Positions 4,864-62,464 of a stretch of DNA of 64,000 nucleotides are shown piece by piece. Positions within the stretch are counted from its first letter, which is position 1, and the number at the start of each line of letters is the position of its first letter. This stretch comes from Sabellastarte sp. h YS-2021 (taxonomy: Eukaryota > Annelida > Polychaeta > Sabellida > Sabellidae). Location: NCBI GenBank assembly GCA_964017235.1, contig OZ024930.1, positions 155,682,221 through 155,746,220 of the forward strand, written 5' to 3'. Made by a program: the position numbers and the translations under genes. The notes under the pieces are model-generated. The model did no database searches, had not been told where the DNA came from, and saw only the letters and a program-made list of their open reading frames with translations.

Positions 4864-7800
4864 CTAGATTGGGCCAACTCGGCGCCAACATATCCCCAGA
4901 CAGGTCATCACTCACGCCACAGGTTTTGATCGGGAATTTTTTAAAACATAATTACCCATTATTATATGAACTTCAGCACATCAATCTACTCTGTTTATAT
5001 CTTCCCAAGGAAGATGGTGTATCCCCAGACGCCGAATACATAACTCAAATTATATTTTCAATCTTCCTGCAATGATAACTCTAAACCTATTTTCAAAGTA
5101 TTTAAATGATTGATGATTGAATGTCCATTCTAAAATAATAATCCCAAAAGAGCATATCTGTTTCTATATTTGTTGACAAATAAAATATTATTTTTAACTC
5201 AACTCATCACATTTTTCAATCTTCCTTCAAAGTATTTAAATGATTGATGATTCAATGTCCATTCTAAAATTCATAATCCCAAAAGCGCATATCTGTTTCT
5301 ATATTTGTTCACAAATAAAATATTATTTAAAAAAAAATTATTTATATTATTATTTTATTATATTTTTTATTTTTAGAATTTGCAAATTGTTTTCAGTTAT
5401 TCATTTCCTCTATACCTATATATGTGGTCCATATATATGCAACCTAAATATGTGACACAATCTCAGTTCTGACTCCCCTTTGTGTTATATGTAATGAAGC
5501 CCACCACCTCCCACCCCCACCCCTCTCCCCTTCTCCACACCTCTCTCACTATTACACAAGATCTGCAACCCCATTGAGTTCTTTGTTTCTCATCTGATAT
5601 CATTAAATACCTTTGTTTATTTAGTGTCACTCAATATAGCTGGAGGTCCCAGAGGTGGGTGGGGGGAATCCGGGTGGGGGATGTGGGTTGAGCATAAATG
5701 GTAAACAAACAATCTATATAAAAGGGGTACTCAAATACAAAAAGAATTCAGAATTTTAAGTATGTGATTATCAACTGAAATGAGTTCATAACTGTAGGAG
5801 CTGTGCCAAAATTAACTGAGGCAAGTTGAATAAAACTGGGCTAGTTGAGGGTTAAAAATCCCCTAGTTTTACTACATAAGGATATAATTTCATTAATATT
5901 GGGACTTAAAGCTCACTTAAAGTGTCCATTTTGTCTACTTGAATATGTTTAACCAGTTTCATTTTAAAAAGTGAAAAACTCAGCAAGCAGAGGTATAACA
6001 CACAAAAATAAGTTCTTAAAAGACTAAGATAGCCATAACATTATTAATATTCAAAATTTAAATAGACAGGCATTTCCTTTTAAAAATTCAAAGATTTCAG
6101 CTCTATAACCCACATAGTTTGACAGTTACTGGGCTTTAAAGTGGCATAATATCCATAAATTGGGTTTCTGTGGGCATTTTACAATTGTTAAAGAGACCTT
6201 AGCAATTAAACTACAGATCTGAAACTTTTTGGGGGACATACATAACAAACAAAAATTATATATAATACAGTTTAAGACTTGTCACACTAAGCATTTCCAA
6301 ATAACAGGGCAAAATACGGAAAAAATGTCAAAAAAGGCACTTGGGCGAGTGTCTATGGCCCTCATACACAGGTTAAATGTCTACTAAAAACCTTGATTTT
6401 CGGCATATGTAAAAAGGACATAATAATGCATTCCCAGATGGGATTTCAGCTCCATCAATCACATAGTTTAACAGTTACAGGGCTTAAAGGTGGTAAAAAG
6501 TCCAAATATTGGGTCATTGTGGGCCTTTTAGAGATCTCGATGTGGCTTTCAAATTAAAGCTTCAGACTTAAAATTTGTTACATACTAAGATTACACATAG
6601 AATATGTATCTAATAAAGTTTGAAACTTCTGAGACTTACCATTTCCAAGTTACAGAGCAAAATATGTGAAAAATGTCTTAAAAGGGTCACTCAGGTGGGT
6701 GTTTAAGGTCCTCATACACAGGTTAAATGTCTACTTGAAGCCTTGATTTTTGGCACATGTAAAAAGAACATAATAATGTATTCCCAGATGAGATTTCAGC
6801 TCTATCAGTCACATAGTTTAACAGTCACAGGCCTTAAAATTGGCAAAAAGTCCAAATACTGGGTCTTTATGGGGCCTTCTAGAGACCTAAATGTGGCCTT
6901 CAAATTACAGCTTCAGACTTAAAATTTGTCACATACTAAGATTACACATAGAATATGCATCTAATACAGTTTGAAACTTCTTAGACTTACCATTTCCAAG
7001 TTACAGGGAAAAATATGTGAAAAATGTCTAAAAATGGTCACTCGGGTGGGGATTTATGGTCCTCATACACAGGTTAAATGTCTTCTTAAAGCCTTAATTT
7101 TTGGCACATATAAAAATAACATACTAATATCTTCTCAGATAGGATTTGAGCTCTATCAGTCACATAGTTTGACAGTCACAGGGCTTAAAAGTAGCAAAAA
7201 GTCCAAATATTGGGTCTTTGGGAGCCTTTTAGAGACCTCAATTTGACCTTCAAAATTAAAGCTTCAGACTTAAAATCTGTTACATACTAAGATTACACAC
7301 AGAATATATATCTAATACAGTTTGAAACTTCTCAGACTTACCATTTCCAAGTTACAGGGAAAAAGATGTGAAAAATGTCTTATAAGGGTCACTCGGGTGG
7401 CTGTTTATGGTCCTGATACACAGGTTAACTGTCTATTAAAGGCCTAAATGTTGGGGCACATATAAGAAAACACATAGATATATTCCCAGATGATATTTAA
7501 CTTAGATGAGAGACATAGTTTGAAAGCTACAGTGCTTGAAAGTGGCAAAAAGTGCATAAATTGGGTCTCTGTGGGCACTTTTGAGACCTTAAGTCGACCC
7601 CTTTGGGTAAACCTACAGCCCTAAAATTTTCTACAGACAAGGATTACATATCAAAGTTATACCTAGCGCAGTTTGAGACTCATCAGAATTATCACTTCCA
7701 AATTATAGGGCAAAATATGTGAAAAGTATAGCAAAAAATCCCTAAGTGGGGGTATTTATGGGCCTCAAACACAATTTTCTCCTCAACTTAAAGTCATGAT

Positions 7801-8138
7801 TTTCGGCACATGTACTAAGAACATATTAATGTGTTGTCAGGTAAAATTTCAGCCAGCTGAGCATCATAGTTTGTGACCTACAGGGCTCTAAGTGGCCAAA
7901 AGTGCAATTTCTGACCTTAAGGTGGCCATAAGTTCTTTTTTACTGGGAGTTTAAGGTCACCTTAAAATAGGGATCTTCCTTTGGGCACCCTTAACATGTG
8001 TACCAAGTTTGAAAAAAAAATATTAATTTGTTTTTGAGTTATCGCGTCCACAAGGAAATTTCTACGGCGGCGGCGGCGGCGGCGGCGGCGCGACGGACCT
8101 GAATCCAATATATCCCCGACTTTCGTCTGGGGATATAA
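4864..8138 (+). mobile_element. Family-A hairpin-ended element, copy 1 (complete)
   Basis: A 3275-bp non-autonomous element. It starts CTAGATTGGGCCAACTC after an A. A 12-bp motif ATATCCCCAGAC at 4890-4901 is the exact inverted copy of GTCTGGGGATAT at 8125-8136, the distal arm of the 3' hairpin. Inside are AT-rich sequence, GT/CT-rich sequence near 5500-5690, and a roughly 350-bp tandem repeat (about 6050-7960). Before the hairpin are TTATCGCGTCCA and nine GGC triplets (about 8066-8092). It ends ...GGATATAA before a T. There is no transposase ORF. The near-identical copy at 13675-17217 confirms the boundaries. The structure resembles Helitron/Helentron non-autonomous elements; that assignment is inference. 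Confidence 0.75.
6050..7960 (+). repeat. About 350-bp tandem repeat inside family A, copy 1
   Basis: Units are anchored by CCTCATACACAGGTTAAATG near 6360, 6710, 7065, 7410 (variant) and 7765 (variant). Each also holds a CAGTCACAGGGCTTAAA-type segment. Short open frames here are repeat artefacts. Confidence 0.75.
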
Positions 8139-8609
8139 TTATTAAGGGCAGCTATTCAATCAAATGTCTGGTCCAATTCACCGGGTCATATTTTGACGCT
8201 TTTGTTTTGAGACATTTTGTATTATTCTCTACAGAAATAAACTTAAAACCCTACTACCGAAGGACAAAATAATCTGGTTACATTTTAGATAATGTTTTAT
8301 ATAGTAACTACTCCCAATTCCACATATATATGCTATGAAGTTGCCAACTCCCCCAAAAATCTACTGTCAGTAAGGTAACTGCAATTCAGCTGATAAATTT
8401 CAGATGTGTGCAGTTATACCCAAATACAAATTGTACATCTGAAACCCAAATCTCTGTTGGTGCTGAGCGCATTGTCAATACGTTGCATTTTTCTTTCTCC
8501 ACATACACTAACTGGGTGATATTTCAACCAATCAATGGTTCTCTTAAAAATTTTATACATTACTACCCACACACAAATACATTACACACAATTAACCCTA
8601 CAAGTCCCA
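8139..8609 (-). other. Probable start of DNAJA2 3' UTR
   Basis: Repeat-poor sequence between the stop codon and the family-A element. No AATAAA on the minus strand was found close to the stop. The polyadenylation site may lie here without a canonical signal, or beyond the transposon (TTTATT on the plus strand near 4745 and 2662). Confidence 0.25.
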
Positions 8610-8786
8610 CTATTGATGGGCACACTGTACACGGGGTCCGCTGGCCCCATCTTCATCGTCCGAGTCCCCATTGTACGCCTCTCCTCGCTTGCTGGACATG
8701 TGTGGGTCATACTCCAGCAAGTGTACTTCCTCTGCCTCACCTGGTACAACCACCTTTTTCCTGGTTGGTAGCAGGCTCTCCAGCTT
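8610..8786 (-). CDS. DNAJA2: DNAJA2 exon 10 (C-terminus and stop)
   Basis: Encodes [20 protein letters not shown] through the acidic DSDDED stretch to GPRVQCAHQ and a TAG stop at 8612-8610. The acceptor CTTACAG ends at 8787. The 156-codon frame open on the plus strand here is its shadow. Confidence 0.95.
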   Translation of the reverse strand, partial: KLESLLPTRKKVVVPGEAEEVHLLEYDPHMSSKRGEAYNGDSDDEDGASGPRVQCAHQ

Positions 8787-11700
8787 CTGTAAGGGCAGAG
8801 AAGGACTTATATAATAGTGTCAATCAATGTCAACTTAGGGCTTTTTGGTCACTTCCAACAACCAGGTTCTGGGACTGATCTCTCCATATTTGCCACTCCA
8901 ATCCATGCAGAGGCGACAGATTGGAACCCCAAAGTTGCTTACCTTTATGCCACCGAGGACCTTCATAATGGTGTAAAGATTGGAAAGCAACTTCAATATA
9001 GAAGTTAAAGAACTTTAAAAATTGTAATAAAACTTTACAGTGAGATACACATATCTAATGATGAGTTTATTGTGGATATGTATTTCATGGTGGTCAGATT
9101 ATTCATGAAAATCAAAATTGGCTTTCAGGGCTTTCAAACCAAACATAAACAATATTTTTTATGTTTGTCACCGATATGGCGAAGTATACCTGTGACTGTA
9201 AATGGCCAACAATTTAAAACAGACTATCTGTTTAATAAACTTAATATGTAACAAATAAAAAGTAAAGTACATATTTCCTCATATGTATGTGATTTTTATT
9301 GTTTCGATGAAGTATCAGGAATAACTTGAACCTAAAAGATTGATGTTTGCAATCACTGGCTAAATAGTTTATTCAGTTTCATAGTTTCTGCCACGACAGA
9401 AGGAAAAACGGAAGCCATAATTAACACTGGTCTTAAAAGTTAAAGACCACCTCCAGCCAGTTTTGTGGCAATAAAAAATAAAACAAAGAGAAGACTAACA
9501 ACTTTCATAAATTGATTAAAGACAAGAACAAATGTCGCAGTTTTTGTCCAGTGTTATGACACAAAAGTATTAAACTTAAGCCAAAGACAAAGATAAGAAC
9601 TTTCCCTTGAACAAAGAACTAAGATAATGCACCTTAAACTCCATGCCAGAAACTGTGATTAAATACTGGGTTGTACGCAAATCTAAACTTATACAAATTA
9701 AGCATAATAATTATACATATAAAATTAAAAACAAATTTTACATTTTAATTTCTTACCTTTAGGGATCCTTCATCTATAAACTGATTTGGTGGGAATGTGA
9801 TATCAAACTTTACATAGAGATTTCCTTTCTCAAATGGATTTCTGTAAATGGGCATTCCCTCATTTTCAACACACCTCATAGCACCTGAAATAGAAAAACC
9901 ACTAGCATAATACCTAATAGCAGACTAAAGCCATGTTTACGATTTATAATTTATGTTACAGTTAATCTAAGAAATCAGTTAATAAAATTGAATAAAATCA
10001 AGTCTTGGCACACAAACAGTATCTCAAACAATGTCCATATAAATATAATATATGAGAGTATAAGTATAGTTATGTTTGACAATAATTATCTATTTGAGTT
10101 ACAAGTAGTATCCTATCTTCTGTATAACATTATATGTACATGAAGGTTGTATTCACAAAAGGGATTAGCAATGAATCAGCCAAAAATTCACTTAACCCAG
10201 GTAAAAAAGCTGCATAATTAAGCTGACTTTACGGGGATTGTTTGCCAATCAATTACGCAACTTTTGCACCCCCACCTTCCCTGAATATAATGTTGATTAA
10301 GTACATCAAGGGTAATTGTAGCTAAGAATGGATCAAGTTGTGGTCCATTGATTTTACCACTTTGATGGTAACATAACATTGGATGTCCAGGCTGTAAGTG
10401 TGGGAAGATCAGGGAAAAACAAACAAACAAACACTACCATGTCAGGAAAGTGGTTAAAAGGATATTAAAAATATTCATATGCACTTGAAGTCTACATATT
10501 CAAGCTTCTAATTTTGGCATTACCTGTGACTATAAATGATACAGGCTGGTTATTTCATTTACCTGGTTCAATAACCTTCCCCTTGGGATGCTTAATGACC
10601 AAATCCCTGCCATCTAGGTGTTTGACTGTGAACTCAAAGCCACATAGTGCTTCTGTGATGCCAATGTTGTATGTACAGGTCAGGTCATTGCCCCTCCTTG
10701 TGAAAAGATCATGCTCTTTCTGTTGCAGAACTATTATCACATCTCCTGGTTCCAGCCCAGGCTAAAAAATAAAATCATAACCTATCAAATCCTTTTCTTT
10801 TAAAGTTGTTACTGATCCTTGTTTTGAATGAAGAAATCAACAATTTTCCTACTTTACACTAATACTGCAGAAGTAGAATGCTTACCTGTGAGAAAATTTC
10901 TGTTGTTAAACATTCAAGCAAAAGAATAATAAATTTTGAGAAATGATGAGTATCTACTTACAAAACTCACAGATGTTTAACATTTCAACAGGTTTTAACT
11001 TTCACCATCTAAGACTTCTTTACTTGTTTACTTTATTACATACCCAGTGAAATTTTTCCATTTACAAATCGCTACAAGTGGCCTCAGACACAGTAATGAT
11101 AAAATTTCATAATTATCGTCCTGCTTTCATAACTGTGGTTACGAATCTGTGGTCCTGAACTTAAATCCAGGTGATAAAAACATGGAGGAAAGACTGACAG
11201 CCTTTGACCTGAGGCCACTTGTAACAATTGTATGTACATCTCACACATAAAAATGTTGCCTCGGCCCTTGATAAGCTGTCACACTGCCTTGAAGATGTAA
11301 AGAGATGGCTCTGTACAAATAAGCTCAAGCTAAATCCTGATAAGACCGAATTCATTGTGTTTGGCTCAAAGTCTCAGCGCGAAAAACTTAATCAGTCCTT
11401 CCCGGTCAACATACTTGGTAATCTTATATCATAAATAGATGTAGTTAGGAACCTTGGTGTCTGGTTTGATTCAGATTTCTCATTCTCTTGCCATGTTATG
11501 AAGGTCTGCAAGGCTTGTTTTGCTCATGTCCGGGATCTTAAGCGACTCCGAGGACATCTGACACATGAAGCGGCTCTTATGGCTGCCAATGCTCTGGTCG
11601 GAAGTCGACTTGATTACTGTAACTCTCTGTTCAGAGGTCTCTCAGTTCTAGATCTGCGCAAACTTCAATGTGTTCAGAATAGCCTTGCCAGAATTGTTGC

Positions 11701-14700
11701 CAACACCACCAAGTACTCACACATCACTCCAGTTAGAAAAGCACTACATTGGTTGCCGATTAAGTACCGTTCTATCTTTAAGACTGCCATGCTGGTATAT
11801 AAGTTCCTACACAGTGGTAACCCCAAATACTTTGAACCCTTCCTGATTCCCAGACATAGTGCATATAACACACGTCGAAGTCAATCTGATGGCATATTTC
11901 TTGAGGTTCCCCAGTTTGCTTCAGTTTTCAAGTCTCGAAAACATTTTGGACTCAGTGATGCACCTATGATTTGGAATGACCTTCCTGATGAGGTCCGCTC
12001 TGCAAACTCACTTGCCTCTTTCAGGTCAAAGTTGAAGTCATACCTCTTTGGAAAAGCATACCCACCCTAAATTTCCAATCTCCTTCTGCTTTCTCCGCGG
12101 TGCTGACCCCTGCAATGTCTCTGGTTTTTGAATATTGAACAATGTTTTTGTGTGATGCGCCTTAGAATCTGTCTTTTGACAGAGATTAAGCGCTATAAAA
12201 GTGCTATTAGAATTAGAATACAGTAGCTATATAACAGCAGCCTTACCGCCTGGTCTCCCTCTCCTCTGAATGGTACTTTCTGATTATCTCTCATGCCTTT
12301 ATCTACATGCACTTCCAGTATTTTTGACTGCTGTGTGACTTTCTTTCCTTTACACTCCTTACACCTGTCTTTCTCATTGATCATCTCACCTGCAATGAAA
12401 CAACAGAACCATGTACACAAATTTCACCTGCAACACTCAAAAAATTGGAAAGTAAAATGACAGTTTGTTAAAACTGTTTCTAGGATGTCCATTCAGGTGG
12501 TCAAGATTCAACACTTCAAACGATCTGGCATTAATTACCAATTTCCACACTTTGGGTCAGGGTTGGGAATTCAATGTTAAAAACCAATAACCTCAGTTGG
12601 GCAGGGGTAAATCTGTTACCGATTGTGCTTCCAATTTAGATCACAAACAAAATGAATTTTACTTCTTATAGAAAAGTGTATTATTTTTGAGAACATATTA
12701 AAACTTTATATTACTCACCTTCTCCTTTGCAATCAGGGCATACTGTCTGCATCTGCTGCACCATGCCTGGACCCAGCTGTCTGAGAGTAACCTTCACCCC
12801 TCGGCCACTGCAAGTCCTGCACGGATGCATGGCCCCAGACTTACCTCCCTCCCTAAAATAACGTGGTTGTGATAAGAATTACAAATAAACAAGGTCAAAA
12901 GGGGTTTTGGTCTACTAGCACAAGCGCGAGTAGTGCCCATTGCTGCTTAACTTCTGTAAAACACGGACACTCCTCATACTACGCCACAATTCATTAAATT
13001 CCAGAGACCATAAAAAAGTGATCTCTAGAAGTGCGAGCCAAGCTATAGCTCCTGCTTAAAAACTATGACCATACAAATGACAAGTGTTAAGTGAATGCAA
13101 GTCCCTAGCTTGTTTGCTTCACAAATGTAGCAAGTGGGATCATAGTAATGGATTACAGAGGAGTTTTAAGTTCTGAGGAGCATACTTACTATATAAACTG
13201 TAAAACCTTTTATCAAAAGTCTTTCAATTTTTATAGTCTATGGCATCTCAATACATGTAAAACACCTGGTCTTACTATGACAACAGTTTCAATAAAACAA
13301 TGAAGAATGAATGTACAACAATCAGAGATGTGCAGTGCCCACTTGCAGACAGGGCACTGATAAATACAGTTTGGCGTTGACCACAGGCCAACAGATAAGG
13401 CTGCCTAGGGTTAGCCACACTATCAGACAGCTTATACATTAAACCATTTTCTTTGTACCATATTACAAAATGCTACAAAAAAAACAAAAAAAAAAACAAA
13501 TTTTCTTTATGGGAAACCTGATGTGTCGACACCTTTCTGAAAAAACACTATGTATAAAGCTTCATCATTACAAAACAAGATCTATTACAACCACAATAAC
13601 TATATTTCTCATTTATATTACATTAGGCAAATGTCTCAGCATTGTTCATTGTCACTGTGAATGTGATGTGAAAACTAGATTGGGCCAACTCGGCGCCAAC
13701 ATATCCCCAGACAGGTCATCACTCACGCCACAGGTTTTGATCGGGAATTTTTTAAAACATAATTACCCATTATTATATGAACTTCAGCACATCAATCTAC
13801 TCTGTTTATATCTTCCCAAGGAAGATGGTGTATCCCCAGACGCCGAATACACAACTCAAATTATATTTTCAATCTTCCTGCAATGATAACTCTAAACCTA
13901 TTTTCAAAGTATTTAAATGATTGATGATTGAATGTCCATTCTAAAATAATAATCCCAAAAGAGCATATCTGTTTCTATATTTGTTGACAAATAAAATATT
14001 ATTTTTAACTCAACTCATCATACTTTTCAATCTTCCTTCAAAGTATTTAAATGATTGATCATTCAATGTCCATTCTAAAATTCATTATCCAAAAAGCGCA
14101 TATCTGTTTCTATATTTGTTCACAAATAAAATATTATTTAAAAAAAAATTATTTATATTATTATTTTATTATATTATTTTTAGAATTTGCAAATTGTTTT
14201 CAGTTATTCATTTCCTCTATACCTATATATGTGGTCCATATATATGCAACCTAAATATGTGACACAATCTCAGTTCTGACTCCCCTTTGTGTTATATGTA
14301 ATGAAGCCCACCACCTCCCACCCCCACCCCTCTCCCCTTCTCCACACCTCTCTCACTATTACACAAGATCTGCAACCCCATTGAGTTCTTTGTTTCTCAT
14401 CTGATATCATTAAATACCTTTGTTTATTTAGTGTCACTCAATATAGCTGGAGGTCCCAGAGGTGGGTGGGGGGAATCCGGGTGGGGGATGTGGGTTTGGG
14501 ACTACAAAGAGATGGAGAGCTACAGCATAAATGGTAAACAAACAATCTATATAAAAGGGGTACTCAAATACAAAAAGAATTGAGAATTTTAAGTATGTGA
14601 TTATCAACTGAAATGAGTTCATAACTGTAGGAGCTGTGCCAAAATTAACTGAGGCAATTTGAGTAAAACTGGGCTAGTTGAGGGTTAAAAATCCCCTAGT

Positions 14701-17700
14701 TTTACTACATAAGGATATAATTTCATTAATATTGGGACTTAAAGCTCACTTAAAGTGTCCATTTTGTCTACTTGAATATGTTTAACCAGTTTCATTTTAA
14801 AAAGTTAAAAACTCAGCAAGCAGAGGTATAACACACAAAAATAAGTTCTTAAAAGACTAAGATAGCCATAATATTATTAATATTCAAAATTTAAATAGAC
14901 AGGCATTTCCTTTTAAAAATTCAAAGATTTCAGCTCTATAACCCACATAGTTTGACAGTTACTGGGCTTTAAAGTGGCATAATGTCCATAAATTGGGTTT
15001 CTGTGGGCATTTTACAATTGTTAAAGAGACCTTAGCAATTAAACTACAGATCTGAAACTTTTTGGGGGACATACATAACAAACAAAAATTATATATAATA
15101 CAGTTTAAGACTTGTCACACTAAGCATTTCCAAATAACAGGGCAAAATACGGAAAAAATGTCAAAAAAGGCACTTGGGCGAGTGTCTATGGCCCTCATAC
15201 ACAGGTTAAATGTCTACTAAAAGCCTTGATTTTCGGCATATGTAAAAAGGACATAATAATGCATTCCCAGATGGGATTTCAGCTCCATCATTCACATAGT
15301 TTAACAGTCACAGGGCTTAAAGGTGGTAAAAAGTCCAAATATTGGGTCTCTGTGGGACTTTTAGAGATCTCGATGTGGCTTCAAATTAAAGCTTCAGACT
15401 TAAAATTTGTTACATACTAAGATTACACATAGAATATGTATCAAATAAAGTTTGAAACTTCTCAGACTCACCATTTCCAAGTTACAGAGCAAAATATGTG
15501 AAAAATGTCTTAAAAGGGTCACTCAGGTGGGTGTTTAAGGTCCTCATACACAGGTTAAATGTCTACTTGAAGCCTTGATTTTTGGCACATGTAAAAAGAA
15601 CATAATAATGTATTCCCAGATGAGATTTCAGCTCTATCAGTCACATAGTTTAACAGTCACAGGCCTTAAAATTGGCAAAAAGTCCAAATACTGGGTCTTT
15701 ATGGGGCCTTCTAGAGACCTAAATGTGGCCTTCAGACTTAAAATTTGTCACATACTAAGATTACACATAGAATATGCATCTAATACAGTTTGAAACTTCT
15801 TAGACTTACCATTTTCAAGTTACAGGGAAAAATATGTGAAAAATGTCTAAAAATGGTCACTCGGGTGGGGATTTATGGTCCTCATACACAGGTTAAATGT
15901 CTTCTTAAAGCCTTAATTTTTGGCACATATAAAAATAACATACTAATATCTTCTCAGATAGGATTTGAGCTCTATCAGTCACATAGTTTGACAGTCACAG
16001 GGCTTAAAGTAGCAAAAAGTCCAAATATTGGGTCTTTGGGAGCCTTTTAGAGACCTCAATTTGACCTTCAAAATTAAAGCTTCAGACTTAAAATCTGTTA
16101 CATACTAAGATTACACACAGAATATATATCTAATACAGTTTGAAACTTCTCAGACTTACCATTTCCAAGTTACAGGGAAAAAGATGTGAAAAATGTCTTA
16201 TAAGGGTCACTCGGGTGGGTGTTTATGGTCCTCATACACAGGTTAACTGTCTATTAAAGGCCTAAATGTTGGGGCACATATAAGAAAACACATAGATATA
16301 TTCCCAGATGATATTTAACTTAGATGAGAGACATAGTTTGAAAGCCACAGTGCTTGAAAGTGGCAAAAAGTGCATAAATTGGGTCTCTGTGGGCACTTTT
16401 GAGACCTTAAGTCGACCCCTTTGGGTAAACCTACAGCCCTAAAATTTTCTACAGACAAGGATTACATATCAAAGTTATACCTAGCGCAGTTTGAGACTCA
16501 TCAGAATTATCACTTCCAAATTATAGGGCAAAATATGTGAAAAGTATAGCAAAAAATCCCTAAGTGGGGGTATTTATGGGCCTCAAACACAATTTTCTCC
16601 TCAACTTAAAGTCATGATTTTCGGCACATGTACTAAGAACATATTAATGTGTTGTCAGGTAAAATTTCAGCCAGCTGAGCATCATAGTTTGTGACCTACA
16701 GGGCTCTAAGTAGGGCTGCCACGAGTAGTAATTTTACTACTCGAGTACTCTTTAACCATTACTCTACTCTTGAACGAGTACTCTTTTTTACAATGAAATC
16801 AAGAAAATGTACCATTTCACTGTAGAATTTGATATATTGCACATCATTTCTGACAAAAATATAGTGGAAAATTCAAAATTTTAATGCAGACGAGTACTCT
16901 TTTCCTGATTTTGTACTTTAAATAATCCAGTACTCTACTCTTTGACGAGTACTCTACTACTCTGTGGCAGCCCTAGCTCTATGTGGCCAAAAGTCCAATT
17001 TCTGACCTTAAGGTGGCCATAAGTTCTTTTTTACTGGGAGTTTAAGGTCACCTTAAAATAGGGATCTTCCTTTGGGCACCCTTAACATGTGTACCAAGTT
17101 TGAAAAAAAAATATTAATTTGTTTTTGAGTTATCGCGTCCACAAGGAAATTTCTACGGCGGCGGCGGCGCGACGGACCTGAATCCAATATATCCCCGACT
17201 TTCTTCTGGGGATATAATTATTATTAAGTGTAGGGCTGGGAGTGGTGATAAAAAACAGCCCCGAGTACCCACACTCAACCCAAATTCGAATAATCGCAAG
17301 ATATAATATCTGCCATTAGAAGTCTTCTGTAAACAAATGATAACTTTGGAAGAAAAACGTCTTCTATTTAAACAAGTATCATAGAATATGGATATATACA
17401 TTTTTTATACATTTTTAAACGGAAACCACAACTTAAATTGATATTATGTGGTGGAAATGTAGCATATTTTACACATGCGTTTCATTTCGTGGGCAATAAT
17501 ACAATAGGCTGCAAGTAATTGAATAGTTAAAATGGACTCAAGTCCTAACAAAAACCGACTCGTCCTTCAAGGTTCAAGTAACTGTTTGCAGCCCTAATCA
17601 AGTGTACTTTATTAAAGCTAAGAAAGTGATACTTACCCATTGCATTTAGGACATATAATCTGCTTACTAAGTTGCAATTTCGATGTCTTTCCATTGTATA

Positions 17701-20700
17701 AATCTTCCAATGATACTCTAAAAATAAGACAAAATAAGACCCAATGCAGGAAATAATATTCATAATACAAGAAATGACAATACTTTAAGAACGTGATTAG
17801 TTTTATACTTAAACAGGAATTGGTAAAACTAAGACTTACACTTAACTAGGTATTCTAGTTCACACGTTAAATCTCATTAGAAAAACGCTCTCTCAGGAAC
17901 CATTATCTTTTCTACTAAAAAAGGATATTTTCAATAAACACAGTTTTACATAAAAGGGCTTCTACTATATGTAGACTTAAAGATATTACCTGAGTGGATG
18001 CAGTGTATCTTCTCCTCTTCTTCTCCTGTGTCTACTGCTTCCACCAAAACCAAATGGTGAACCCCCAAACAGACCCCCAAATAACCCACCAAATATGTCA
18101 TCAGGGAAACCTAAACACGGATAACAAAGAGAATTTGATTCCATAGGTACTGCATGATGTATCTTTGTGATGAAAACAAATTCAGTTATTAGGGGTACAG
18201 TACAACCCTTTACAAAATCAAAACAGTACATCGAAAAACTATTTCTTTGCATATTTCTTGTGTGTGTGTGGCTTGTGTATGCAGCCAGAGCAATACAAAG
18301 GAAAAATAGCAATAGAGATGCCGACACCACACAGCCCAGGGAAATAGTTTTCAACACCATGAGATGCAGAAGTGACACAGTACAAAGATCAGGAGACTTC
18401 CAGAGTAAATAGTGTGACATGATGCTGCACACCTACACCCGCCATCCAATGTCCTTACCAAGTAGCAACTTTCTACACCTTATGGTTTCCAAGGTAGTAC
18501 CTGGACAAGATTTTAAAGTCAATTTCGCTACAGCAAGGTAAACAGTCAAATCAAGGCCACATCATGGGGTTACACAACCACAACCACACCCCCTAACCAA
18601 TGTCCCTGCCAAGTGTCAACTTCCTACACCTTATATTTTCCCAGATATAGAACAGACAACACTTTAAAGGTCAATGTCACTACGGCAAGGTCAAATCAAG
18701 GTCTCATCATGACATCGCATACCTACACCTTTGACCAATGTCTCTACAAAGTATCAACTTTCTATACCCTACATTTCCAAGGTATAGCCCAATCAAGATT
18801 ACAAAGGTCAAGGTCACTACAGCAAATGCAAAGGTCAAATCAAGGTCACATCATGACACTGCACAACGTCCCCCAAAAAGTATCAACATCTTACACCTAA
18901 GGGTTTCTGAGATACGGCCCGGAAAACCTTTTTCCTGCCACCCATCCAGACAATATGGGTGAAAACAATACCCACATAGTCCTTAGAAGCTGTGGGGTAA
19001 AAATAAAAATAGCATTGGAGATGCCCTTACCAATGCCGAAAATAGTTTTCAACACCATGAGATACATAAGAAGTGAAACAGTACAAAAATCAGGAGACCA
19101 AACAATGTCAGCTTTGTGAAGGTGAAAATAATGTGGAAGTAGAGAAAAGGATGTTACGTTTAAGACAGAAAATGTACTATGTACACCTACACCCCCCAAC
19201 TACTGTTCCTACACACTACGATTTCTGAGATATGACCTGCACAAGATTTTAAAGGTCAAGGTGACTACAGCAAGGTTAAAGGTCACACCATGATGTTGCA
19301 CACCTACAACCCCTAACCCATGTCCATAGCAATTATCATTTTCCTATACCTTATGGTTGCTGAGATATATCTCAAACAAGACTTTTTAAAGTTCAAGGTC
19401 ACTACAGCAAGGTCAAAAGTCAAACTAGACCTAGCGCATCGGAGAACCGATGCAAATTGTATCCACCGTAAAGACAATGCACCAAAACCTCTAGGACCAA
19501 TAATAAGCAAGTTATAAGCACTTTTAAGTTTGGCTGTCCTCATTTGACCTTCAAGGAGGCGCCCAAGGTCAAATCCGACCACACCAGAAGATTCCCAGAA
19601 GATGATTTTCTATATGTTGGTTTACTATCCCAAACATCTTCGACCAGTAATAAGCAAGTTATAAGCACTTTTAAGCTTGGCTATCCTTGTTTGACCTTGA
19701 CTAAGGGGCCCAAGGTCAAATCAGACCACATCAGAAGATTCCCTGCCCATGATTTCCTATATGTTGGTTTACCATTCCAAAACTCTAGGACCAATAATAA
19801 GCGAGTTATAAGCACTTTTTAGGTTGGCTATCCTCATTTGACCTTGAAGGAGGGGTCCAAGGTCAAATCTGACCACACCAGAAGATTCCCAGCCCATGAT
19901 TTTCTATATGTTGGTTTACCATCCCAAACCTCTAGGACCAATAATAAGCGAGTTATAAGCACTTTTAAGTTTGGCTGTCCTCGTTTGACCTTGAAGAAGG
20001 GGCCCAAGATCAAATCCGACCATGACAGAACATTCCCCGCCCATGATTTCCTATATGTTGGTTTACCATCCCAAACCTCTAGGACCAATAATAAGCGAGT
20101 TATAAGCACTTTTAAGTTTGGTTGTCCTCGTTGGACCTTGAATGAGGGGCCCAAGGTCAAATCCGACCACACCAGAAGAATCCCAGCCCATGATTTCCTA
20201 TAGGTTGGTTTACCATCCCAAACCTCTAGGACCAATAATAAGTGAGTTATAGGCACTTTAACCTTTGGCTATCCTCGTTTGACCTTGAAGGAGGGGCCCA
20301 AGGTCAAATCCGACCATGCCAGAAGATTCCCAGCCCATGATTTCCTATAGGTTGGTTTACCATCCCAAACCTCTAGGACCAATAATAAGCGAGTTATAAG
20401 CACTTTTAGGTTTGGCTGTAATCATTTGACCTTGAAGGAGGGGCCGAAGGTCAAATCCGACCACACCAGAAGATTCCCAGCCCATGATTTCCTATAGGTT
20501 GGTTTACCATCCCAAACCTCTAGGACCAATAATAAGCGAGTTATAGGCACTTTAACCTTTGGCTATCCTCGTTTGACCTTGAAGGAGGGGCCCAAGGTCA
20601 AATCCGACCACACCAGAAGATTCCCAGTGCATGATTTCCTATATGTTGGTTTGCCATCCCAAACCTCTAGGACCAATAATAAGAGAGTTATAAGCATTTT

Positions 20701-23700
20701 TATGTTTGGCTATCCTCATTTGACCTTGAAGGAGGGCCCAAGGTCAAATCCGACCACACCAGAAGATTCCCAGTACATGCTTTCCTATATGTTGGTTACC
20801 ATCCCAAACATCTAGGACCAATAATAAGCGAGTTATAAGCACTTTTAAGTTTGGCTGTCCTCATTTGACCTTGAAGGAGGGGCCCAAGGTCAAATCCGAC
20901 CACGCCAGAAGATTCCCAGCCCATGATTTCCTATAGGTTGGTTTACCATCCCAAACCTCTAGGACCAATAATAAGAGAGTTATAGGCACTTTTACCTTTG
21001 GCTATCCTCGTTTGACCTTGAAGGAGGGGCCCAAGGTCAAATCCGACCACACCAGAAGATTCCCAGCCAATGATTTCCTATATGCTCGTTTACCATCCCA
21101 AACCTCTAGGACCAATAATAAGCGAGTTATAAGCACTTTTAAGTTTGGCTGTCCTCGTTTGACCTTGAAGGAGGGGCCCAAGGTCAAATCCAACCACGCC
21201 AGAAGATTCCCAGCCCATGATTTCCTATATGTTGGTTACCATCCCAAACATCTAGGACCAATAATAAGCGAGTTATAAGCACTTTTAAGTTTGGCTGTCC
21301 TCATTTGACCTTGAAGGAGGGGCCCAAGGTCAAATCCGACCACGCCAGAAGATTCCCAGCCCATGATTTCCTATAGGTTGGTTTACCATCCCAAACCTCT
21401 AGGACCAATAATAAGAGAGTTATAGGCACTTTTACCTTTGGCTATCCTCGTTTGACCTTGAAGGAGGGGCCCAAGGTCAAATCCGACCACACCAGAAGAT
21501 TCCCAGCCAATGATTTCCTATATGCTCGTTTACCATCCCAAACCTCTAGGACCAATAATAAGCGAGTTATAAGCACTTTTAAGTTTGGCTGTCCTCGTTT
21601 GACCTTGAAGGAGGGGCCCAAGGTCAAATCCAACCACGCCAGAAGATTCCCAGCCCATGATTTCCTATATGTTGGTTTACCATCCCAAACCTCTAGGACC
21701 AATAATAAGCGAGTTATAAGCACTTTTAAGTTTGGCTGTCCTCATTTGACCTTGAAGGAGGGGCCCAAGGTCAAATCCAACCACGCCAGAAGATTCCCAG
21801 CCCATGATTTCCTATATGTTGGTTTACCATCCCAAACCTCTAGGATCGATAATAAGCGAGTTATAAGCACTTTTAAGTTCTGCCATCCTCGTTTGACCTT
21901 GAAGGAGGGGTCCAAGGTCAAATCTGACCACATCAGAAGATTCGCAGCACATGATTTCCTATAGGTTGGCTTCATATTGTAAACCTCTAGGACCAATAAT
22001 AAGGGAGATATAGGCACTTTTAAAGTCCGCTATGTGGGTTACTTCGGCACTCCGTGGATGACCTTGAATTAGGAGCTTCAAGGTCAATGAGTGCAAGTTG
22101 GTAGAGGACATGTATATGTGTCATACATATCACCTATGAAGAGATTCAACCTTCTACCTATGAGGAACAGCCAGTAGAAAAATGTAGATTATTTTCAAAG
22201 AAATGCCCGTGGCGGCCATCTTGTTTTTCAGAATGAGGCTATTTTCCTTCCCAGAGAAGCTTACCCCCCAATGAAGATATCCTGCAAATTTGGTGAACCT
22301 AGCTGCTGTTGTTTTCCTCCTAGAGCGTTAACGCTGAAAATCTCTCTACGTGCGGCGGCGGCGTAGCGGACGCTAAACCAAAGTATCCACCGGATGCTTC
22401 CGGTGGATACAATTAAGGTCACACCATGACATGGGACACCTACACCCTCAAAAAACCAATGGCCCTACCAAGTACCAAGTATCCACTTCCTATACAATAT
22501 GGATACCAAGATATAGCTCAGACAATATTTTAAACTTCAAAGTCACGACGGAAAGGTCAAATCAATTTCATACCACAATTTTGCATACCTACAGGGCCTA
22601 ACCAATTATTGCACCAAGTATCAACGGATTCAGAGATATAGCCCTGATAAATGTTAAAGGTCAAGGTCACTACAGCAAGGTCAAAGGTCAAATCAAGATT
22701 ACACCATGACGTTGCACACCTACACCCTCTAACCAATGTTCCTTCAAAGTATCAACATCCCACACTTTATGTTTTCCAAGACATAGTCTGGACAAGATTT
22801 CAAAGGTCAAAGTCACTACTGCAGGGTCAAATAAAGGTCACACCATGATGTTGCACACCTACACCCCCTAAACAATGTCCATACCAAGTATCAACTTCCT
22901 ACACCTTACAGTTTCTGAGATGCAGGCCAAACAAAACTTTTCCTGTTGCTCATCCATCATGTGTGAAAACAATACCCCAACTGTGGGGTAAAAATGCAAG
23001 ACATACCCACAAGTCACAGTAAAAAACAGCTGAAAATATTTAAAATCTGCGAGGGTAGTATTGTGTTTATAATTGGATAACAAAAATTTGAATAATATAG
23101 GTTCCCCTGTCCTACATATACAACTGAGAATCTGAGATTACCCTAAAATTAATGATGTAAATAAATTCTGAATAATACAAGATCAGCATATTTTGGCAAA
23201 GTCCTTTGGGTGGAGATTGTAGATGGTGACAGAACACTTACAGATAGTGCTGGGAGATCGCTTGGATTTTCCGTGTCGATGTTCGTATCGGACATTTGTA
23301 ACCAAACTTCGAACATTTCCAATTATGGAGTCGAAGTGTTAAAAAGATAGATAAAATATTAAATTATATGAAGTAAAATACACACAAATTACCACAAATA
23401 TGACCAAAATATAATCTAAAAGCCATTCACAGACGTCTCCCTCACTAACAGACTATGCTTGATGTATCCTCACTTGTGATTGGCTGATTTTATTATTACC
23501 TTGACAACAGTTGGAAAACCCCAAGGTGTTTCTATTTACGTTATTTTTATTGCATTCACGGCTAGTTTTGTGATTTTAACTGATGGATATTTCAGATTTT
23601 TACAAAATATTATTAAGGTTAGCATTTTATTGTGACCAAAAGGCTGCAAAGAAATGGATTTAGAAATATCGGTTTTACTTAAATTTTACCGATCATTGAT

Positions 23701-31500: not shown

Positions 31501-31513
31501 ATACAGACAAAAA

Positions 31514-31746
31514 GGGACCATGGTGGCAGAGTGGTAACACTCTTGCCACCCACCTCTGAGGCCGGGGTTCGATTCCCGTCACAGCCTCAAGTGGGAAAGC
31601 TGGTAGTTGTTTCCGTTGGTCAGCAGTTTACAGTACAGAACCCTGATGAACTGTAGATACTGGTTTCCTCTGCCCTTCCAACTACCCATCATGATATGAC
31701 CTGTACAGTGTTGAAAGCAATGTAAAACCCCAAATAAATAAATACT
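31514..31746 (+). mobile_element. tRNA-derived SINE, full copy
   Basis: A tRNA-like head has an A box (TGGCAGAGTGG) and B box (GGTTCGATTCC), then a body with GTGGGAAAGCTGGTAGTTG, TTACAGTACAGAACCCT, CTGCCCTTCCAACTA and ATGACCTGTACAGTGTTGAA, ending in CCCCAAATAAATAAA. Perfect 13-bp target duplications ATACAGACAAAAA lie at 31501-31513 and 31747-31759. This is a retroposed element, not a tRNA gene. Confidence 0.92.
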
Positions 31747-51715: not shown

Positions 51716-51775
51716 CCTTTGGGTCTGTCTTTTGATGCAGATTAAGCACTGTTAATTCATATTAGAATTTATTAA
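51716..51775 (+). mobile_element. LINE 3' tail fragment
   Basis: GGGTCTGTCTTTTGATGCAG, ATTAAGCACTG and ATATTAGAATTTATTA resemble the 3' terminus of the LINE at 11228-12222 (AATCTGTCTTTTGACAGAGA, TTAAGCGCT, TATTAGAATTAGAATA). Only the last 60 bp remain. Confidence 0.6.
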
Positions 51776-52089: not shown

Positions 52090-52197
52090 CAGTGCTCTGA
52101 AAGTATCCTGAACTTTGTACTGGTACAGTACTTCTATATCTCGTGGTGTTGAAAATATTTCCCTAGGCTGTGGGGTACGGGCATCTCTGATGCTATT
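52090..52197 (+). repeat. Dispersed repeat, copy 3, at the DIRS left boundary
   Basis: GTACTTCTATATCTCGTGGT, GTTGAAAATATTTCCC and GGCATCTCTGATGCTATTTT match the inverse of 18298-18395. The match stops where the DIRS inverted end begins, so this is the insertion site of DIRS. Confidence 0.6.
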
Positions 52198-52503
52198 TTT
52201 TATTGCGTTAATACATCCTATCCAATGGACAATTGCTTTACCGGTCGGCGCGACCGGTCCCGCCAAACGCCAGAAAAAGACGTCCTGTATAGAATACCGG
52301 CAGGACCGATCAGGAGAGTGCATTCGCCAGGTGGCGCATCATACTTCCTCTTCCTGTCTAGACATCGTGACGTCATAGCATCTTTTTCGTTTGGCGCGTG
52401 GAGAGTGAAGACATGTTTTCAACCACAAGGAAATTTTGGTTTTATACCGAACTCATCCGTTTTATTTCATATTTGAAGTAATTCAGAAGTTTTATCTACA
52501 ACC

Positions 52504-54420: not shown

Positions 54421-54606
54421 TCACTGTATATTTCCAGTGACCGGTCAGAAGAACTCTGTACTTATTACCGGTCAGGGAGACTTGAACCCAGCACCAGTGG
54501 TGTCAGAGAACAGCAAAGTGACTTTAAATTTCAATGTAGACTCTCATGTTGCAAATGCTCATATTGTCACCGGGTTGCCACAAAGGAGAGGCGTAAATCC
54601 CACCTT

Positions 54607-57626: not shown

Positions 57627-57936
57627 GGAGATATTGTATATATGTAAAAATGTACATATTGTAAATATGTAAAATATGTACATAATGTAAATATTTGTTG
57701 TACATATATTTAAAAAAACAAAACAAAACTGTGACTTGCTTCCCTTGGGAAGTTTATTCTTCTGGGACTGAACTCAGCCCCTCTCTCTCTATCTTTCCCT
57801 TCTCAAACCAACTCTGGAAGGAAAGAAAAAGGGGGGGGGGGCAACGTCGGTAGACTCCCGGTTAACCGGTGAGTTGGTGGCCGACCTTGACCTGTCAGGG
57901 TTCTCTGACCCTAGGTCAAATGGGCTTGTACTATTT
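57627..57936 (+). other. DIRS 3' non-coding region
   Basis: A TGTAAATATGTAAAATATG-type repeat (57640-57715), a pyrimidine-rich segment, a G tract (57829-57841) and ACCGGTTAACCGG-like text. It belongs to DIRS by position. The internal complementary region expected in DIRS was not identified. Confidence 0.5.
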
Positions 57937-58319
57937 AAGCGTCCCGCAAGGGACGCTTGTTTGTGTATGGGAGACCTTCAGGCTACGCCGTCTCCTCCGC
58001 CGGCTCCGCATTTTGTTTTCCTTATAACTCTGTAACCGTTAGGCGGATTCTTTTCAAATTTGGCAGGTTTAGGCAGTAGCCTTGGGGAATTTTTTTGAGT
58101 ATGCTGCAGTGACATTTCAACCAATCAGAGAGGTCACATGACCAAAAATGTCTTTTTTCGATGGGGAAGCTTGTCCGGATGATAACTTGAAAGGAATTTT
58201 ATCAATTCACCTGAAACTTGGCAAATACATTCATTCTATTAAAATCTGGAAATCATTAGATTTTGGCATTGATTGGTTAAGAAATGGCCGAGTAATTAAT
58301 GATTAATTATTCATTATGA

Positions 58320-60270
58320 ATTTTCCAAATAAGGTAAAACACAAAAATGCTTTTATCTCGAAAACTGTGCTAGATAGAGCGATTTCGATGAAATTTTTGA
58401 CCCACAGGGTAGCTCTGGGGAGTAGTTATCTCAATTTTGAAAAATTTTTTGTCTCGCCAAAAATGGCGGCCATTTTGAATTTTCAAATTTTTCACAAAAA
58501 TTGCAAAACATAAAAATTCTTATATCTCGAAAACCCTGCTAGATAGAGCGATTTCGACGAAATTTTTGACCCACAGGGTACTTCTGCAGAGTAGCCATGC
58601 CAATTTTCAAAAAAAATTTTCTCACCAAAAATGGCGGCCATTTTGAATTTTCGAATTTTTCGCAAAATTGCAAAACGTAAAAATGCTTATATCTCGAAAA
58701 CCCTGCTAGATAGAGCGATTTCGACGAAATTTTTGACCCACAGGGTACTTCTGCAGAGTAGCCATGCCAATTTTCAAAAAAAAATTTTCTCGCAAAAAAT
58801 GGTGGCCATTTTGAATTTTCGAATTTTTCGCAAAATTGCAAAACGTAAAAATGCTTATATCTCGAAAACCCTGCTAGATAGAGCGATTTCGACGAAATTT
58901 TTGACCCACAGGGTACTTTTGCAGAGTAGCCATGCCAATTTTCAAAAAAAAATTTTCTAGCAAAAAATGGCGGCCATTTTGAATTTTCGAATTTTTCGCA
59001 AAATTGCAAAACGTAAAAATGCTTATATCTCGAAAACCCTGCTAGATAGAGCGATGTCGACAAAATTTTTGACCCACAGGGTACTTCTGCAGAGTAGCCA
59101 TGCCAATTTTCAAAAAAAAATTTTCTCGCAAAAAATGGCGGCCATTTTGAATTTTCGAATTTTTCGCAAAATTGCAAAACGTAAAAATGCTTATATCTCG
59201 AAAACCCTGCTAGATAGAGCGATTTCGACGAAATTTTTGACCCACAGGGTACTTCTGCAGAGTAGCCATGCCAATTTTCAAAAAAAAATTTTCTAGCAAA
59301 AAATGGCGGCCATTTTGAATTTTCGAATTTTTCGCAAAATTGTAAAACGTAAAAATGCTTATATCTCGAAAACCCTGCTAGATAGAGCGATGTCGACGAA
59401 ATTTTTGACCCACAGGGTACTTCTGCAGAGTAGCCATGCCAATTTTCAAAAAAAAATTTTCTCGCAAAAAATGGCGGCCATTTTGAATTTTCGAATTTTT
59501 CGCAAAATTGAAAAACGTAAAAATGCTTATATCTCGAAAACCCTGCTAGATAGAGCGATTTCGACGAAATTTTTGACCCACAGGGTACTTCTGCAGAGTA
59601 GCCATGCCAATTTTCAAAAAAAAATTTTCTCGCAAAAAATGGCGGCCATTTTGAATTTTCGAATTTTTCGCAAAATTGCAAAACATAAAAATGCTTATAT
59701 CTCGAAAACCCTGCTAGATAGAGCGATTTCGACGAAATTTTTGACCCACAGGGTACTTCTGCAGAGTAGCCATGCCAATTTTCAAAAAAAAATTTTCTCG
59801 CAAAAAATGGCGGCTATTTTGAATTTTCGAATTTTTCGCAAAATTGCAAAACGTAAAAATGCTTATATCTCGAAAACCCTGCTAGATAGAGCGATTTCGA
59901 CGAAATTTTTGACCCACAGGGTATCTGCAGTATCAGTAGCCATGCCAATTTTCAAAAAATTTTTATCTTACCAAAAATGGCGGCCATTTTGAATTTTCGA
60001 ATTTTTCGCAAAAATTGCAAAACACAAAAATGCTTATATCTCGAAAACCGTGCTAGATAGAGCAATTTCGACGAAATTTTTGACCCACAGGGTATCTCTG
60101 CAGAGTAGTTATCCCAATTTTGAAAAAATTTTTGTCTCGCCAAAAATGGCGGCCATTTTGAATTTTCGAATTTTTCGCAAAAATTGCAAAACACAAAAAT
60201 GCTAATATTTCGAAAACAGTGCTACATAGAGCGATTTCGACAAAATTTTTGATCTTCAGGGTATCTCTGC
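58320..60270 (-). repeat. 168-bp minisatellite, about eleven units
   Basis: AAAATGGCGGCCATTTTGAA recurs every 168 bp from about 58457 to 60141. As 168 is divisible by three, long frames stay open on both strands (for example 380 codons at 58539-59681), all made of repeated 56-residue blocks. Two more monomers lie at 61960-62240. Confidence 0.92.
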
Positions 60271-60284
60271 AGAGCAGCTATCCC

Positions 60285-61870
60285 AAAGAGCTTTCACTTG
60301 GTGAAGTTTCAGACCTATAGCTAATTGCTCACCTACTCAAAATGAGTAAATGCGAATTACTTCTAAAAGTATTGCAGATAGCCAAAGTTTCTGAAATAAC
60401 TCATTCACCTACTTTTGGGAGAGCTTTCACTTGGTGAAGTTTCAGACCCGTAGCTAATTACTCACCTACTCAAAATGAGTAAATGCTAATTATCTCAAAA
60501 ACTATTGCGGATACCCAATTTTTATCAAATAACTCATTCATGTACTTTTGGGAGAGCTTTCACATGGTGAAGTTTCAGACCCGTAGATAATTACTCACCT
60601 ACTCAAAATGAGTAAAGGGGCCACGGTGGCAGAGTGGTAACACTCTCGCCTCCCACCTCTGCGGCCGGGGTTCGATCCCCGTCATGGCCGTAAGTGGGAA
60701 AGCTGGTAGTTGCTTGCCGTTGGTCGGCAGTTTACAGTACAGAACCCTAGCGAACTATATGTACTGGTTTCCTCTGCCCTTCCAACTAGCCGTCGTGATA
60801 TGACCTGTACAGTGTTGAAAGCGACGTAAAACCCCAAATAAAAAAAAAAAACAATGAATAAATGCGAATTATCTCTTAAAAGTATTGCAGATAGCCAATT
60901 TTTCTCAAATAACTCATTCACCTACTTTTGGAAGAGCTTTCACATGGTGAAGTTTCAGACCCATAGCTAATTACTCACCTACTCAAAATGAGTAATTGCG
61001 AATTATCTCTAAAAGTATTGCAGATAGCCAATTTTTCTCAAATAACTCATTCACCTACTTTTGGGACAGCTTTCACTCTGTGAAGTTTCAGACCCATAGC
61101 TATTTATTCACCTACTCAAAATGAGTAAATGCTAATTATCTGTAAAAGTATTGCGGATACCCAATTTTTATCAAATACTCATTCATCTACTTGTGGGAGA
61201 GCTTTCACATGGTGAAGTTTCAGACCCATAGCTAATTACTCCCCTACTCAAAATGAGTAAATGCGAATTATCTCTAAAAGTAGTGCAGATAGCCAATTTT
61301 TCTCAAATAACTCATTCACCTACTTTTGGGAGAGCTTTCACTTGGTGAAGTTTCAGACCCATAGCTAATTATTCACCTACTCAAAATGAGTAAATGTGAA
61401 TTATCTCTTAATAGTATTGCAGATAGCCAATTTTTCTCAAATAACTCATTCACCTACTTGTGGGAGAGCTTTCACTCTGTGAAGTTTCAGACCCATAGCT
61501 ATTTATTCACCTACTCAAAATGAGTAAATGCTAATTATCTGTAAAAGTATTGCGGATACCCAATTTTTAAGAAATACTCATTCATCTACTTGTGGGAGAG
61601 CTTTCACATGGTGAAGTTTCAGACCCATAGCTAATTGCTCACCTACTCAAAATGAGTAAATGCGAATTATCTCTAAAAGTATTGCAGATAGCCAATTTTT
61701 CTCAAATAACTCATTCACCTACTTTTGGGAGAGCTTTCACTTGGTGAAGTTTCAGACCCATAGCTAATTATTCACCTACTCAAAATGAGTAAATGTGAAT
61801 TATCTCTTAATAGTATTGCAGATAGCCAATTTTTCTCAAATAACTCATTCATCTACTTTTGGAAGAGCTT
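60285..61870 (-). repeat. 133-bp minisatellite, about eleven units, split by a SINE
   Basis: GAGCTTTCACTTGGTGAAGT or a variant occurs at about 60288, 60421, 60555, 60931, 61067, 61199, 61332, 61467, 61600, 61732 and 61866. Each unit holds the palindrome TACTCAAAATGAGTA. Confidence 0.9.
60617..60852 (+). mobile_element. tRNA-derived SINE inside the 133-bp array
   Basis: Same family as 31514-31746, with A box TGGCAGAGTGG, B box GGTTCGATCC and a tail CCCCAAATAAAAAAAAAAAC. Flanks AATGAGTAAA (60607-60616) and AATGAATAAA (60853-60862) form a 10-bp target duplication with one difference. The tRNA-like head is better preserved than in the other copy. Confidence 0.9.
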
Positions 61871-62464
61871 TCACACACGAAAATGAAAAATTGTGAATAT
61901 CTCGGAAAAGCTATTTCTTCTCCTTTAATGCTCGGCGGGAGATACACACCGCGGCAGTGGTCTTGACAAAAAATTTTGTCTCCCCAAAAATGGTGGCCAT
62001 TTTGAATTTTCAAAGTTTTTGCAAAACACAAAAATGCTTATATCTTGAAAACCATGCTATATGGAGCGAACTCAACAAAATTTTTGACCTGCTGGGTATC
62101 TCTGCAGAGTAGCCATGCCAATTTTCAAAATATTTTTTTCTCGCCAAATATAGCGGACATTTTTAATTTTTTAATTTTTTGCAAAACACAAAAATGCTTA
62201 TATCTTGAAAACCGTGCTAGATAGAGCAGACTGTGCTGACTTTGGTTGCCACAACAGTATAAGGCTAGAAACGAAGCATTTTCTTAATACTTTAGCACTC
62301 ACCTTTATATCCTTTTCGGGACGCAAAAACATTATCTTTTTTTTTTGCGAGCGTTCCTCTAGTTTGTTTTATTATGAGTTCACATAAGTCCCTAGCTGCT
62401 TACCCGCCTACCAAGCGGTAGTTATTCAGCAATTGTCCATTGGATAGGATGTATTAACGCAATA

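Follow-up and report, generated by a model that had tools for sequence, protein, structure and literature searches.

Helitron2 elements are described in the main text of Bao & Jurka (2013, PMC3627910) as carrying asymmetric terminal inverted repeats (ATIRs) of 8-15 bp, of which the 5' copy lies 0-2 bp from the element end within a hairpin, and the 3' copy is subterminal and located upstream of a 3' hairpin. Elements with comparable ends occur in the stretch analysed here (hereafter the window), which comprises 64,000 nucleotides of the genome of the annelid Sabellastarte sp. h YS-2021 (C4:155,682,221-155,746,220; contig OZ024930.1). We hold with high confidence that these elements, assigned to families A, E, C, G and F, belong as non-autonomous members (HINEs) to the Helitron2/Helentron kind of rolling-circle transposon, and that their polarity is the reverse of that given in an earlier note on this DNA. 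The genome searched comprised 1.786 Gb in 647 contigs, and L-numbers denote genomic loci outside the window.

Read in the Helitron sense, the elements share a common plan: a TT start, an ATIR of 10-12 nt that forms a hairpin with a complementary inverted repeat (IR), a stretch rich in GCC, tandem repeats in families A, E and C, the inverse of the ATIR, a second hairpin and CTAG followed by TT. Complete copies are 2.9-4.7 kb long, and the microsatellite just inward of the 5' hairpin takes the form of a GCC run, which is irregular in C. Family A is represented by two complete copies on the minus strand: A1 (4864..8138; TTATATCCCC...CTAG|TT), whose ends are common to many genomic copies, and A2 (13675..17217), which shows 97.7% identity with A1 (3058 aligned columns) and carries a nested insert at ~16712-16975. 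The 5' terminal hairpin of A1 (8109..8138, minus strand), formed by the 5' ATIR ATATCCCCAGAC and its complementary IR, has a folding energy of -9.7 kcal/mol (z -4.3, 0/200 shuffles equally stable). Directly inside it, at the position of the HINE microsatellite, lies a (CGG)n run (8065..8090, minus; 8.7 copies at 100% according to TRF), and the 3' ATIR is found at 4890..4901 (minus). Family E (19425..22412, minus) is complete and set in a pearl-like repeat array, with an interior of 147-bp repeats (x17.3, TRF). Its 5' terminal hairpin, TTGTATCCACCGGAAGCATCCGGTGGATAC, occupies 22383..22412 (minus; -14.2 kcal/mol, z -8.9), followed at the other end of the element, also on the minus strand, by the 3' ATIR (19457..19468), a GCATCGG/CCGATGC hairpin (19436-19453, z -3.7) and CTAG (19425-19428). 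Family C (57935..62362, plus) has a 5' hairpin beginning TTAAGCGTCCCG, arrays of 168-bp and 133-bp repeats and a CTAG|TT 3' end; compared with C-type ends in L019, L026, L030, L041, L044, L048 and L050, this copy lacks 16 nt at its 3' ATIR and hairpin, leaving a remnant ATIR CGGGACGC (62317..62324, plus) where intact relatives have CGGGACGCTT. The earlier note had delimited these four elements (C as 57937-62362, minus, in its own orientation), and its coordinates and motifs proved right.

The correspondence between the two ends was evaluated by comparing the first 60 with the last 45 nt (in the orientation of the earlier note) for their longest inverted match, relative to 2000 dinucleotide shuffles of the 5' 60-mer. 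The longest matches were 12 (A1), 11 (A2), 12 (E) and 8 nt (C), reached by 0, 1, 0 and 23 of the shuffles, respectively, and matches between ends of different families extended over 4-7 nt only. The window copy of C is thus weak on its own (about 1% by shuffling). Five further 3' ends of C type were compared from loci outside the window; four contain CGGGACGCTT (L019, L026, L030 and L041) and the second end in L019 reads TGGGACGCTT, with one change; a divergent end in L023 (GGGATGCTTTG, likewise CTAG|TT) and one chance match in the same locus were excluded from this count. Paired by position, the L026 3' end goes with the L048 5' end and the L030 3' end with the L050 5' end, in either case with a 10-nt inverse match, AAGCGTCCCG; the L019 3' end goes with the L044 5' end and matches it inversely over 9 nt. 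The claim that each motif is the inverse of the element's own hairpin arm therefore stands above chance for A and E, and is upheld for C by its intact relatives. The 5' ATIR sits 2 nt from the element end, as seen for A and E in the window and for C in its intact relatives, and the 3' ATIR precedes the terminus by 26 nt in family A, 32 nt in family E and ~53 nt in intact C, with 24 in G and 29 in F as measured on predicted 3' ends. CTAGA alone shows no enrichment within the window (101 matches vs a shuffle mean of 94). A rank test in which tetramers were substituted for CTAG, with a loose rule for the hairpin, placed CTAG 13th and was discarded, since tandem repeats and overlapping starts confounded it, and a structural scan of loci and window for paired ends, which returned at least 201 merged pairs, many of them due to tandem repeats, was used for leads only.

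Further families allowed the rule to be applied to ends not yet seen. A family G 5' end (TTGTATCCCCGGACGAAAGTCGGGGATAC followed by a GCC run; 2090..2123, minus) is nested within an F-like element, whose 5' hairpin, TTAAGTGTCCC...GGGCGCTTA, was read by eye at 2188..2212 (minus); family F is represented by the 5' portion of an element (TTAAGCGGCC...GGGACGCTTA and a GCC run) at 62983..64000 (plus), which extends past the window edge. The expected 3' ends of G and F were derived from the 5' hairpin only and recorded ahead of the genome search, in the form inverse ATIR-N(15-45)-CTAGTT. The G prediction, GTCCGGGGATAC-N(15-45)-CTAGTT, gave 1,878 genomic matches (993 + 885; controls 1 + 1), and nearly all of the matches listed had a 20-nt gap and a hairpin of the GCGTC/GACGC type. 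The F prediction, CAGGGACGCTT-N(15-45)-CTAGTT, gave 704 matches (341 + 363; controls 0), with a GCTTTTG/CAAAAGC hairpin in nearly all of those listed. A rule drawn from four copies thus forecasts unseen ends genome-wide in two of the three families tried, and the paired-end rule is supported directly for A, E and C, and through predicted 3' ends for G and F. The ends of the window families are likewise abundant: at up to 3 mismatches, the 38-mer of the family A CTAG end has 8,255 genomic matches (4,065 + 4,190) and that of the hairpin end 8,296 (4,247 + 4,049), and the two 44-mers of the family E ends have 3,680 and 2,801, the controls (reversed patterns for the CTAG end of A) giving 0 throughout.

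In the published polarity, the CTAGA with which the earlier note began its elements corresponds, once reverse-complemented, to a 3' end reading CTAG|TT; the hairpin that it called 3' is the 5'-terminal one. Its end positions hold, its polarity is reversed with respect to published elements, and the hairpin at the CTAG end had escaped it. All five 5' ends that were folded form a hairpin (z -4.3 to -8.9), and 3' hairpins are clear in E, intact C and F (z -3.0 to -4.0). A resident element offers a comparison for the orientation: L051 contains an open reading frame of 2,245 aa with PF14214, PIF1 and an Exo_endo_phos match below cut-off, and represents an autonomous Helentron in the same genome. 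L051 and L052 have a common 5' end, in which GGCGGGTTGCG and its complement lie upstream of the gene (with one change in the outermost L051 copy). Both also have 164-187-bp repeats, and at their 3' ends CGCAACCCGCC is located 25 nt before a ...CTCTTG|T terminus. This layout, with the 5' ATIR upstream of the gene and the 3' ATIR near the 3' end, supports the orientation adopted here. As a separate observation, 29 of 43 matches to the L051 protein (e.g. C3:84895440 and C5:69618316) are 98-100% identical and cover only its middle part, with the query starting from ~865; about ten lie in 823-aa frames, and these copies apparently represent a truncated Helentron derivative that has itself been multiplied.

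Profile searches identified 24 PF14214 matches in the genome. Five RepHel families or loci gave a match to an endonuclease domain on the C-terminal side: two of them (L057 and L064) exceeded the Pfam cut-off and three (L051, L059 and L063) fell short of it. No endonuclease frame was seen in L056, L065 and L066. In L063, an E-like 3' end that precedes the endonuclease frame looks like a nested insertion. The two members of the RepHel pair named Hel2 (L058/L059, in the region of C1:175,354,000-175,368,000, and L062/L067, in that of C2:115,873,000-115,893,000) share 99.9% identity in an 884-bp stretch that extends from the endonuclease across the 3' region and into 155/133-bp minisatellites, which resemble those of C and of window positions 419-965. 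Hel2 is thus a candidate relative, unless the two loci represent a segmental duplication.

Several observations weigh against the assignment proposed here. The polarity rests on published anatomy, and end counts lend it no independent support, as the CTAG end of family A shows no excess over the hairpin end (8,255 vs 8,296). The resident Helentrons L051 and L052 end in CTTG and have ATIRs other than those of A, E and C. An autonomous element with ends of the TT...CTAG type was absent from the 10 of 24 PF14214 places that were read in part, and none of the RepHel tails in the stretches read adjoins a CTAG-type end that has a convincing hairpin. Relative to the C-type minisatellites, the Hel2 gene has the orientation of the earlier note; were Hel2 a relative, its gene would lie antisense to the adopted polarity. 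The 3' hairpin is weak in A and G: that of A1 (4864..4889, minus, including the CTAG terminus), with a stem TTGG/GCC...GGC/CCAA, has -5.2 kcal/mol and a z of -1.25, with 21/200 shuffles as stable, and that of G a z of -0.86 (31/200). Among the predicted ends, the one derived for a family H, from a hairpin 5' end GTATCCCCGACGCGAAGCGGGGATAC in L060, ~1,955 bases ahead of the window, failed, with 12 genomic matches (8 + 4; controls 0), four of which have a G-type interior. Finally, the 3' ends of the window's own G and F copies were not found in the sequence following past the window.

Two lines, the reality of the paired-end rule and the orientation that the Hel2 gene shares with the earlier note relative to common minisatellites, would also suit the interpretation put forward there, namely an undescribed transposon lineage with CTAGA at its 5' end, a motif copied from its 3' hairpin and a replicase of its own. 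We regard this as improbable, because every component has been published for Helitron2, HINE or proto-Helentron elements, a reversed RepHel gene has also been reported for some Helitron2 elements (PMC3627910), and L051, the resident Helentron, shows this plan in the orientation opposite to that of the earlier note. What was taken as a possible signature of a new lineage is accounted for by a reversed CTAG 3' end and by an end-matching rule that is already a published hallmark, as the asymmetric ATIR of Helitron2 (PMC3627910) and as the subterminal inverted repeat (subTIR) plus IR of DINE-1/HINE elements (PMC4067079).

Multi-copy comparison bore out the proposed element boundary, as similarity among 30 family A loci sets in precisely at CTAGA; the two nucleotides before it are AA in 29 loci and CA in one (in the orientation of the earlier note). 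In the Helitron sense, CTAG is followed by T in 30/30 and by TT in 29/30. Nineteen distinct 5' flanks (18 A, 1 G) have T (19/19), A or T (19/19) and A (16/19), followed by TT, so that the target of family A is TWA^TT; since TT is common to element and flank, insertion at A^T and at T^T are indistinguishable. For C few 5' ends were available, in which the number of Ts is more variable. The first two positions are TT in 19/19 distinct A/G 5' ends, in place of the TC start of canonical Helitrons; the 22 complete copies had been picked with a 5' pattern starting with TT (up to 4 mismatches), and the 3' patterns for F and G required CTAGTT. The 3' CTAG was read directly in A, E and C, which together with A^T at 16/19 A/G 5' flanks agrees with the signature of canonical Helitrons, a 3' CTRR preceded by a hairpin and insertion at A^T.

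The search for paralogous empty sites involved 22 complete elements: 18 A (two in the window, 16 in loci), two E (window and L031) and two C (window and L044). Such sites were found for six copies, four clean and two approximate, none of them with a target-site duplication (TSD), and no empty site was present for the other 16 among the genomic sequence compared. Clean sites with best matches of 98.6-99.3% correspond to A in L048 and L050 (inside a 133-bp C-type repeat) and to E in L031 (inside A-type sequence). The empty site of the window copy of E, ...GACCTTGA^TTTGACC..., lies in the pearl-like repeat (best 83%), and the approximate sites of A in L032 (84%) and L047 (82%) show junction differences. 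The earlier note was right in suggesting a Helentron-like non-autonomous group. The TSD-free sites count against a reading of the elements as miniature inverted-repeat transposable elements (MITEs), or as another type of cut-and-paste (DDE) transposon that carries subterminal inverted repeats. This reading would suit the high copy number, the short inverted repeats close to both ends and the lack of any coding capacity seen, yet we consider it very unlikely: apart from the six empty sites, the termini are asymmetric (TT vs CTAG), the inverted repeats are unequally far from the ends and the target of A is fixed as TWA^TT. That the elements are satellite or segmental-duplication blocks with incidental common ends, as their tandem-array interiors and one A end duplicated in tandem with its flank (L007/L008) might suggest, is hardly credible given thousands of copies that share their ends, flanks that differ among the loci read, and empty sites. 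In the duplicated case (L037, 297 and 2194; L007/L008), the distance between the two A ends is 1,897 bp and their flank is the same, so that end and flank were duplicated together in tandem.

The relationship among these Helitron2/HINE-like families was evaluated on their 5' flanks. With the GCC run included, similarity exceeded all 300 shuffles for A-E, A-C, A-G and F-G. Beyond the hairpin and the GCC run, none of 500 shuffles was as good for A-G, while the signal was weak for A-C (18/500) and A-F (15/500) and at chance for A-E (160/500, with only 54 nt available in E), the other pairs, at 37 to 402/500, not standing out convincingly from chance. As A-G is the one pair with clear similarity past the GCC run, the description of A, E and C as unrelated in the earlier note is neither refuted nor confirmed. 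By their flanks, A and G are clearly homologous, and they differ by the same A:T to G:C change in the 5' ATIR, the IR and the 3' ATIR (the latter taken for G from the predicted pattern), which would fit an ATIR pair diverging in step. The ATIR pair varies between families, and CTAG and the overall plan are constant.

In terms of established Helitron biology, a RepHel protein supplied in trans would nick the element ends, rolling-circle replication would displace one strand, pairing of the ATIRs together with the hairpins would fix the end points, and the single strand would be joined to the A^T site. That ATIR pairing may dissolve the 5' hairpin and thereby fix the end point was proposed by Bao & Jurka (PMC3627910). 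More tentatively, the elements might belong to a lineage of the Helentron clade that kept Helitron1-type chemistry (CTAG 3' end, A^T target) along with Helitron2 ATIRs, in which the ATIR pairs of each family co-vary so that complementarity, and not sequence, would serve as the end code, and of which the endonuclease-bearing Hel2 with its C-type minisatellites would be the autonomous member. We consider this possible but doubtful; if true, Hel2 would join the two Helitron types. In any case, the presence in one genome of several ATIR variants with identical CTAG ends constitutes a natural set for testing recognition by rolling-circle transposases, and the polarity error corrected here is an easy one to make when a sequence is read without other information.

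Other repeats were observed in and around the elements. Family A contains an extra inner copy of the 3' ATIR, GTATCCCCAGACG, at 5019-5031, ~155 nt inside the CTAG end, which is found at the same place in A2 and in several further A copies. The insert in A2 (16712-16975) has inverted ends TAGGGCTGCCACGAGTAG / CTACTCTGTGGCAGCCCTA and resembles what we take to be a small hAT-type MITE. A short repeat with a tRNA-like B-box text, GGTTCGATCCCC, is present in two copies that are 89% identical (60614-60846, nested in element C, and 31511-31742), and is perhaps a tRNA-derived SINE. Lastly, a block with CCTATCCAATGGACAAT is repeated at window positions 62,585-62,775 and 52,197-52,390 and also occurs in L052 and L059, adjoining C and both Helentron families; it is apparently a piece of another mobile element.

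In the open-licence literature, as far as its accessible parts extend, no published description of the full combination, including TT starts, was found, and each described system shares part of it. In the main texts, CTAG is not mentioned for Helitron2 (PMC3627910), and its sole occurrence in Thomas et al. (2014, PMC4067079) belongs to the proto-Helentron. The latter, proto-Helentron-Pi of Phytophthora infestans, resembles the present elements in its 5' TT, 3' CTAG, insertion at A^T and TSD-free integration; it is autonomous, with a RepHel lacking the endonuclease and a structure reported to be of Helitron type, whereas subTIRs, tandem repeats and no genes were seen here. In the Pacific oyster, Cg_HINE elements (PMC7492417) have satellite-like central repeats between subTIR/IR/microsatellite and subTIR/palindrome, as in our families, and intact Helitrons (PMC7992393) terminate in CTAG on the 3' side, with 86% inserted at A^T and subTIRs in 257/751; they were termed possible evolutionary intermediates. 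These oyster Helitrons differ in starting with TC and in their mean length of 1,092 bp, and Cg_HINEs favour TT sites; the present elements start with TT and measure 2.9-4.7 kb. FoHeli1/2 of Fusarium oxysporum (PMC5148889) are similar in having hairpins at two ends, a 12-bp inverted repeat within the hairpins and a TNAT target followed by T (legend) or A (text), and dissimilar in their TCAG...ATTTT ends and in the autonomous RepHel copies known.

As in Helitron2 (PMC3627910), there are asymmetric inverted repeats (in A, E and C, and by prediction in G and F, with H not upheld) and hairpins at both ends (the 3' one weak in A and G), and the ATIR layout, the compensatory changes between relatives and the 5' T are alike; the described Helitron-1N1_CRe inserts after TTTT, and family A at TWA^TT. 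HINEs (PMC4067079) have T-rich targets with a variable number of Ts, unlike the CTAG ends and the A ahead of TT found here. In their parts, our families and the DINE-1/HINE elements described in that study agree, with a subTIR by the 5' end, an IR, a microsatellite, tandem repeats, a 3' subTIR, a 3' palindrome (weak in A) and, here at the six empty sites found, no TSD.

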